NCBI RefSeq assembly: GCF_030704205.1
Contig: NZ_CP131913.1
Location: 2,294,001 to 2,358,000 of the forward strand
DNA from: Halomonas alkalicola
Lineage (GTDB): Bacteria; Pseudomonadota; Gammaproteobacteria; Pseudomonadales; Halomonadaceae
Direction of reading: 5' to 3'
DNA length: 64,000 nucleotides
Below, one piece after another: positions 33,593-33,619 of the stretch (position 1 is its first letter; each line of letters opens with the position of its first letter). Both the position numbers and the translations under genes were made by a program. A model generated the notes under the pieces. It was not told the DNA's origin and did not search any database. It saw only the letters and a list, made by a program, of their open reading frames with translations.

Positions 33593-33619
33593 GTCGCCCC
33601 GTCCTGCCGGGGCGCGGAT
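33593..33619 (+). promoter_or_regulatory. CRISPR-repeat-like hairpin in the cas5c 5' leader
   Basis: This 27-nt segment starts GTCGC and ends GCGCGGAT, exactly as the first 27 nt of the CRISPR repeat. Between the flanks the stem differs but remains paired: CGCCCCG, loop TCCTGC, CGGGGCG, against CGCGGCCC, loop GCCC, GGGCCGCG in the repeat. Ungapped identity is 16 of 27. It lies 19 bases upstream of the cas5c ATG and just before AAAGGA, its ribosome site. Cas5c recognises the repeat hairpin plus its 3' flank, so it might bind or cleave here. There is no T tract, so a terminator is unlikely. Confidence 0.55.

Follow-up and report, generated by a model that had tools for sequence, protein, structure and literature searches.

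A guide gene with a matching target between cas3 and cas5c of a type I-C CRISPR-Cas locus: a probable CRISPR-repressed module that includes a small membrane-protein gene

Why does a hairpin that resembles a CRISPR repeat stand outside the array, directly in front of cas5c? The window (the whole stretch of 64,000 nucleotides of Halomonas alkalicola DNA that was analysed) contains a type I-C locus with the gene order cas3-cas5c-cas8c-cas7c-cas4-cas1-cas2 and a repeat that forms a hairpin. Its main parts are the following.

31066 to 33297, plus strand: cas3, 743 aa (TIGR01596, E 2.8e-30, and helicase models)
33638 to 34306, plus strand: cas5c (TIGR01876, E 1e-56)
34303 to 38977, plus strand: cas8c, cas7c, cas4, cas1 and cas2 (TIGR01863, TIGR02589, TIGR00372, TIGR03640, TIGR01573)
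39167 to 47823, plus strand: main CRISPR array with a 33-nt repeat (repeat search)

We take the product of cas5c to be the repeat-processing nuclease of type I-C, replacing Cas6. The array repeat is present in 100 exact copies, or 116 when up to four substitutions are allowed. The hairpin itself lies in the gap between cas3 and cas5c.

33593 to 33625, plus strand: psiR2, a hairpin pseudo-repeat (flanks, covariation, folding, distribution)

The segment 33593-33619 reads GTCGCCCCGTCCTGCCGGGGCGCGGAT; it is as long as the opening 27 nt of the array repeat and shares their flanks, GTCGC and GCGCGGAT. The 7-bp stem enclosed by these flanks, CGCCCCG/CGGGGCG, is completely paired and unlike the stem of the array repeat in sequence, and 18 nt separate the hairpin from the cas5c ATG at 33638. 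A preliminary description of this DNA had pointed to exactly these traits, namely a repeat-like length, the two flanks and an altered yet fully paired stem, and all of them are seen. The pattern GTCGC-N12-18-GCGCGGAT has 127 matches in the window, compared with an expectation of 0.14 per shuffled window, and the hairpin at 33593-33619 is the sole copy outside the array. Window GC is 68.6%, and the folding energy of the hairpin is ordinary (z -1.4; 20 of 200 shuffles are equally stable), so the earlier worry that such an energy could arise by chance was justified. The hairpin is significant because of its flanks and the comparative data, and not because of its energy alone. In an alignment of the window's array repeat with hairpins from 12 loci, which were picked by hand as psiR2 elements with a GTCGC flank (once GTCAC), 100% of the cells are paired. 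Changes on both sides affect five of the seven pairs, compared with 2.0 on average in shuffles and no more than 2 in slid controls, over which the true alignment is favoured, as the consensus structure was drawn from the same sequences. The suggestion of selection for structure through compensating stem changes is borne out by these counts. Strong hairpins with flanks other than GTCGC exist too, for example in L013, L025, L027 and L039.

What accompanies the hairpin? A view confined to it is incomplete, because a second pseudo-repeat, a guide, a target with a PAM and a small gene lie upstream.

33295 to 33310, minus strand: target (protospacer), reading TTTCCCTTGGAAATTA; guide positions 1-16 match it 16/16
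33311 to 33313, minus strand: PAM 5'-TTC-3' (GAA on the plus strand), adjoining the target
33314 to 33343, plus strand: weak predicted promoter, TTGGAA-18 nt-TAGGCT, abutting the PAM (analogy with L098, L101, L043 and L133)
33374 to 33547, plus strand: gene for a 57-aa protein, a candidate CRISPR-repressed toxin (ORF, hydropathy, dN/dS)
33554 to 33565, plus strand: psiR1, a degenerate repeat 3' end (5' handle), GAGGGTTGAAAT (repeat comparison)
33566 to 33592, plus strand: guide (pseudo-spacer), 27 nt (match to target)

Judged by its sequence context, the hairpin belongs to a two-repeat mini-CRISPR, as its 3' pseudo-repeat (psiR2), and is not a lone Cas5c site. Two features by which CreR/CreA systems are recognized are present in the window, that is, two divergent pseudo-repeats flanking a pseudo-spacer within a cas locus, and a guide that partly matches a nearby site adjoined by the subtype's PAM (16/16, TTC). 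Beyond the 16 matched positions the guide is mismatched to the target, which lies directly after cas3 and includes the cas3 stop codon. When the PAM requirement is dropped, the best site of the guide is still the one beside TTC, with 14/15 against 10 for the next site. The guide 16-mer has two exact copies in the 3.61-Mb genome, the guide and the target, and at up to three mismatches there are two further sites, compared with five for a reversed control pattern. In the available parts of the papers, TTC is given as the PAM of I-B CreA (PMC8501985) and is named in work on type I-C CRISPR-Cas in Xanthomonas oryzae (PMC8406640). The first pseudo-repeat of the window agrees with the window's own repeat at 8 of 12 positions, the poorest value among 13 loci compared, and has a poor stem (-2 to -2.4 kcal/mol); processing of the guide's 5' end is doubtful on account of this degenerate psiR1 with no good stem. 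Across the 13 module loci with an array repeat that was read, the psiR1 tag shows 143/156 identities with the repeat end of its own array, against a shuffled mean of 134.0 (p 0.0006). The inverted repeat of the gap, TAATTTCCAAGGGAAA / TTTCCCTTGGAAATTA, was also considered as a MITE or transposon. This reading was rejected: a repeat tag precedes one arm, a TTC PAM adjoins the other, and other lineages carry unrelated sequences at these places.

Does the pairing of a guide with a local target extend to other cas5c loci? A first set comprised 81 upstream regions, those of 80 cas5c loci (the best 80 of 585) and that of the window. Repeat-end tags were sought up to 800 nt upstream of cas5c, and the bases after each tag were scored against all TTC-flanked sites on both strands of the same region, with positions 6 and 12 omitted. 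Twenty tags were found in 19 loci, and 14 of them match 12-15 of 15 positions beside a TTC PAM, each better in its own region than in all 80 other regions; six tags are unmatched. A second set, scored by the same criteria, consisted of 56 further loci, 29 from the class and 27 from the family; for the latter 29 genomes matched, of which the window's genome and G266, with its fragmented gene, were left out, and the sequences had been inspected by eye ahead of scoring. Here 11 of 13 tags score 12-15/15, three of the 11 repeating first-set genomes (L091, L107, L137). Eight of these matched tags have no equal elsewhere and three are equalled in one or two other regions, because close relatives share guides, while the two misses are L131 and L096, the latter with one nucleotide inserted in its target. 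The placed cas5c start has no start codon in 7/80 scan loci and 19/29 class loci, and the upstream windows of these are therefore approximate.

With the sets merged under a looser tag rule, and the three repeated genomes left out, 54 tags occur in 50 loci and 22 loci reach at least 12/17, 19 of the 22 guides being unequalled by any other region. Merging of near-identical module-less pairs (L001/L083, L003/L097, L005/L099, L071/L139) leaves 130 distinct cas5c upstream regions, 22 of which contain a guide-target pair, a figure that includes close relatives and does not stand for 22 independent cases. When no PAM is required, the same best site, beside TTC, is recovered in 22/22, with the runner-up at 11/15 or less. 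Two further regions are near misses with a PAM-free score of 11, namely L065, whose TTC site is tied with one beside ATC and whose guide reaches only 11/17, and L096, where the site is shifted by the insertion and lies beside TCC; together with the 22 pair loci they make up the module set of 24. The target of L096, about 336 nt upstream of cas5c, has one extra base after position 5 in comparison with the relatives' target, possibly a sign of lost repression or a bulge tolerated at the flipped-out point. For the tagged guides of L036, L038, L046, L059 and L131, no matching TTC-flanked target was found within 800 nt, and in the PAM-free search those of L036, L046 and L059 reach only 10. Over whole loci, sites of at least 12/15 comprise one beside CAC for L036, and one beside TTT and one beside AAA for L046; the L059 guide has no site of this quality elsewhere in its 18.7-kb locus. 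In L046 the mini-CRISPR (3782 and 3839) lies behind a large ORF upstream of cas5c, and its best target, 13/15, is adjoined by TTT rather than TTC. L059 carries two full hairpin pseudo-repeats and a guide ahead of cas5c (8892-9000), and this guide may act elsewhere in the genome.

The guides differ among lineages, and each fits its own target; between the window and L098, guide position 15 differs and the target differs likewise. As the score by which pairs were chosen ignores positions 6 and 12, a plain mismatch count would be biased, and a leave-one-out count was used instead. Mismatches fall on position 6 in 14/22 loci and on position 12 in 11/22, compared with 30/306 for the other 15 positions. 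Positions 6 and 12 are described as unpaired in crRNA-target duplexes (PMC8501985). A guide RNA of the CreR/CreA kind is expected to tolerate mismatches at these two positions, as the set does. Read from the aligned sequences, the pattern is Cascade-like and a property of the set of loci, not of the window, as the window's guide pairs with its target at both positions.

Where could a complex bound at the target interfere with transcription? The target precedes the cas5c operon on the same strand, and the predicted promoter follows the PAM without a gap. A consensus scan of 33200-33700 returned neither a promoter-like nor a terminator-like site, and the weak hexamers of the window are proposed from those of relatives: TTGATA-17-TAAGCT in L098, TTGAAA-17-TAAGCT in L101, TTGACA-16-TATACT in L043 and L133, and TTTACA-17-CATACT in L107. 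The -35 hexamer of L043 and L133 coincides with the last six bases of the target. In 17/24 loci the best sigma-70-like hexamers start between -20 and +50 of the PAM-proximal target base, a raw count with no null computed and with L091 and L107 in place of L002 and L004; they lie away from the target in the other seven, namely the window, L025, L027, L029, L055, L085 and L094. A long and imperfect hairpin at 33328-33367 (GCCCT..AGGCTT..AAGCCT..AGGGC) was also noticed by eye; it sits ahead of the small gene, between that gene and the predicted promoter.

We propose that the cas3-cas5c gap is, very probably, a CRISPR-repressed module of the CreR/CreA type that serves the type I-C system. From the elements legible in the DNA (mini-CRISPR, guide, target, PAM, Cascade-like mismatches across loci and a coding gene) we infer a course of promoter activity, processing, loading and repression. 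A promoter just downstream of cas3 would transcribe the membrane gene and psiR1-guide-psiR2, and probably also the cas5c operon on the same transcript, given that a terminator was not found. Cas5c would be expected to cleave this leader at psiR2, presumably after 33614 by analogy with type I-C repeats, and less surely at psiR1, and thereby release a crRNA-like guide; the same cut could perhaps have a secondary effect on the cas5c mRNA. The guide-loaded Cascade would then occupy the TTC-flanked target beside the -35 box and block the promoter, and the DNA would be spared from Cas3 by the partial complementarity, which is assumed for the 16-nt match. Repression by Cascade would in this manner reach the membrane gene and probably also the operon that encodes Cascade itself. 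Should Cascade be lost or blocked by an anti-CRISPR, the membrane gene and the cas operon would both be induced.

How does the proposed module relate to known systems? CreR (cas-regulating RNA) is reportedly the subject of Liu 2023 in Cell Host Microbe, and CrePA is said to come from Shu 2025. We presume that processing is carried out here by Cas5c and in CreR by Cas6. As far as the available parts of the sources go, CreR has been described for I-B, I-E and V-A (PMC13131331). The present module is like it in having a CRISPR-like mini-array in the cas locus, a partial match to a predicted promoter upstream of the cas genes and a Cas effector as the proposed repressor, but it belongs to type I-C and usually has a membrane gene between target and guide. 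CreA has two degenerate repeats, of which psiR1 is the more diverged (PMC9458426), and pairs at guide positions 1-5 and 7-11 beside a TTC PAM (PMC8501985). Two degenerate repeats with a worse psiR1, the I-B type of pairing with its TTC PAM, and a target at the promoter (here predicted) of the gene just upstream of the guide all recall CreTA, and the place in the cas operon after cas3 recalls the I-F version, located between cas3 and csy1 (PMC10097628). CreT toxins are described as RNAs, with tRNA-sequestering mini-ORFs in I-B and a small RNA in I-F; instead of a toxic RNA with a minimal rare-codon ORF, the window has a 57-codon protein gene, and relatives encode proteins of 45-66 aa, under purifying selection where tested. 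CrePA, which represses a KilA-N protein, likewise places a protein and not an RNA under Cascade and a crRNA-like guide (PMC12737573). A KilA-N domain is usual in CreP, which acts on cell division, whereas the window's protein is a single-pass membrane protein with no family match. A short hydrophobic membrane peptide is also typical of type I toxins (PMC12737573), but their antisense RNA would be replaced here by CRISPR repression at the promoter, and toxicity is hypothetical. The CreTA and CreR main texts available do not mention type I-C, although the primary CreR, CrePA and first CreTA reports may hold such a case, and the literature examined yielded neither a type I-C mini-CRISPR of this kind nor a small membrane protein so controlled. 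To the extent of that literature, the class of mechanism is already known and the I-C form with a conserved membrane protein is new.

What is the small protein? It has a hydrophilic N-terminus and one C-terminal transmembrane stretch (maximal 19-residue hydropathy 2.05), and its gene, between target and guide, has GAGG 8 nt ahead of the ATG. The dN/dS ratio is 0.08 against L098 (0.141/1.760, with 29 of 43 differences in third positions) and 0.14 against L101, both with dS above 1, and ranges over 0.08-0.41 in 10 pairs of relatives; L043 against L133 adds 0.38/1.45. These values are imprecise since several dS exceed 1. Going by these substitution ratios, the gene is protein-coding and under purifying selection, and a CreT-like RNA toxin is ruled out as its identity. 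A profile of ten such proteins, A1, matches 9/275 family genomes, once each and always beside cas5c; as all nine genomes supplied profile rows, the informative part of this search is that no place away from the module matched at E 0.001. The ten A1 proteins were scanned against Pfam, NCBIfam and PADLOC, where the protein of the window has no match at E 1 and other members have single weak matches (DUF2474, E 0.071; the YoaK small membrane family, E 0.028). A comparison of the A1 profile with that of a second group, A2, aligned 16 N-terminal columns, on which common descent is not claimed, and the protein searches found four proteins per group, some of which are the queries themselves. The window's protein also has no match in plasmid records.

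Among the 24 module loci, 15 have a membrane ORF between guide and target at a strict cut-off of 40 aa and hydropathy 1.6, compared with 0-0.17 per locus, or about one in all, when the sequence is shuffled by pairs of bases; L027, L039, L094 and L133 add four related proteins below the cut-off. The membrane protein is not obligatory for the module, since L014, L022, L127 and L128 have no such ORF and L055 only one of 28 aa. Nested in the main reading is the narrower alternative that the RNA tunes cas only, the membrane protein being unrelated or a helper, as in a pure CreR system. We regard this as a distinct if lesser possibility: the four loci that keep guide and target with no membrane ORF between them fit it well, as does the want of a terminator-like site between the small gene and cas5c in the 33200-33700 scan, and autorepression has been published for I-B, I-E and V-A (PMC13131331, in the part available). 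The excess of membrane ORFs over shuffled sequence, with the four additional relatives, and a small-gene profile that finds nothing away from the module in the family at E 0.001 speak against this alternative. The hypothesis that the membrane protein acts as a toxin or in abortive infection, and not as a benign accessory, has nearly even weight; the protein's small size, its membrane nature and its linkage to a repressor favour the idea, and the four loci that retain the guide but not the protein weaken it. With slightly less weight, a widespread I-C addiction or abortive-infection module can be envisaged in which Cascade, guided by the mini-CRISPR, silences a family of small single-pass membrane toxins, and its loss or its inhibition by an anti-CRISPR frees both the toxin and, from one shared promoter, a burst of Cas proteins.

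Does the hairpin follow cas5c or the guide? Within 75 nt of cas5c, 24/24 module loci have a strong stem, against 9/106 other distinct regions (9/110 before merging); the figures are 24/24 against 7/80 when the count is confined to regions whose placed start coincides with a true start codon. Two of the non-module loci with a stem, L036 and L059, do carry tags, but these lack a matched target. Of the 27 oriented cas5c loci from the family, 19 have a cas3-cas5c gap of 10-44 nt and no module, and 8 have the module in a gap of 278-357 nt, the value of 278 being measured from a wrongly chosen ORF end. The module is an optional insert between cas3 and cas5c. From this distribution, the hairpin accompanies the guide and target and not cas5c, which counts against the main proposal of the preliminary description. 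In that proposal, the synthesis of Cas5c is limited by the protein itself, through binding or cleavage of the hairpin in the cas5c leader. A repeat-like hairpin with compensating changes 18 nt ahead of cas5c agrees with such translational autoregulation, as do L029, L030 and L036, in which a repeat-like hairpin sits at the cas5c ribosome site. As a general account it is unlikely, given the distribution just described and the 19 family loci that do without the module, and given that it leaves the guide, the target, the PAM and the position 6/12 pattern unexplained. The derivation of the hairpin from a repeat stands, and the suggestion of a short guide-like RNA was near the answer; self-limitation by Cas5c falls away as the main function. 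In the three loci just named the ribosome-site hairpin, GTCGCGCC..., is found at 6572-6602 (L029), 8973-9000 (L030) and 8972-9000 (L036); in the first two it follows psiR2 as a third element. It is in these three loci that direct control of cas5c translation by Cas5c is most plausible. L127 and L128 show a different arrangement: in the 300 nt ahead of cas5c, target and guide are separated by only 69 and 94 nt that hold no membrane ORF, a plain CreR-type layout in type I-C.

Decayed, functionless CRISPR repeats from an array rearrangement are a very improbable source of the gap sequence. The large array and the degeneracy of both pseudo-repeats agree with such an origin, but the guides fit their own targets across lineages with Cascade-like mismatches, the covariation of the hairpin contradicts decay, and the small gene is under purifying selection. 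A phage-derived RNA anti-CRISPR (Racr) left in the locus is scarcely credible, since solitary repeat mimics of that kind (PMC10651486, in the part available) do not match two pseudo-repeats whose enclosed guide has its target nearby and whose position within cas operons is constant, and the window's small protein is unmatched in 50,697 phage records.

What are the implications of a module of the CreR/CreA type in this position? CRISPR-guided self-regulation would extend to type I-C, with Cas5c in place of Cas6, and an uncharacterized family of small membrane proteins is predicted to be wired to Cascade activity. Should these proteins be toxic, phages that disable CRISPR would set them off as protein effectors, which would give the cell a built-in reply to anti-CRISPRs; the proteins would also be a ready source of Cascade-gated switches. 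Caution is due when a 'repeat mimic' hairpin stands alone in a cas leader, as it can be half of a guide gene.

Some further observations concern the neighbourhood of the module. At gathering scores the only Rfam match of the window is a TPP riboswitch (4752-4854, minus strand, 69.3 bits). Within the array, spacers occurring twice (39986-40059 and again 41215-41288; 41627-41727 and again 44845-44945) are a sign of segment duplication. The last five repeats, 47521-47823, have the variant GTCGCGTCCCG in common and are presumably the old end of the array. Just past the array, an ORF at 47834-48139 resembles, by eye, the C-terminal part of a HipA-like kinase.
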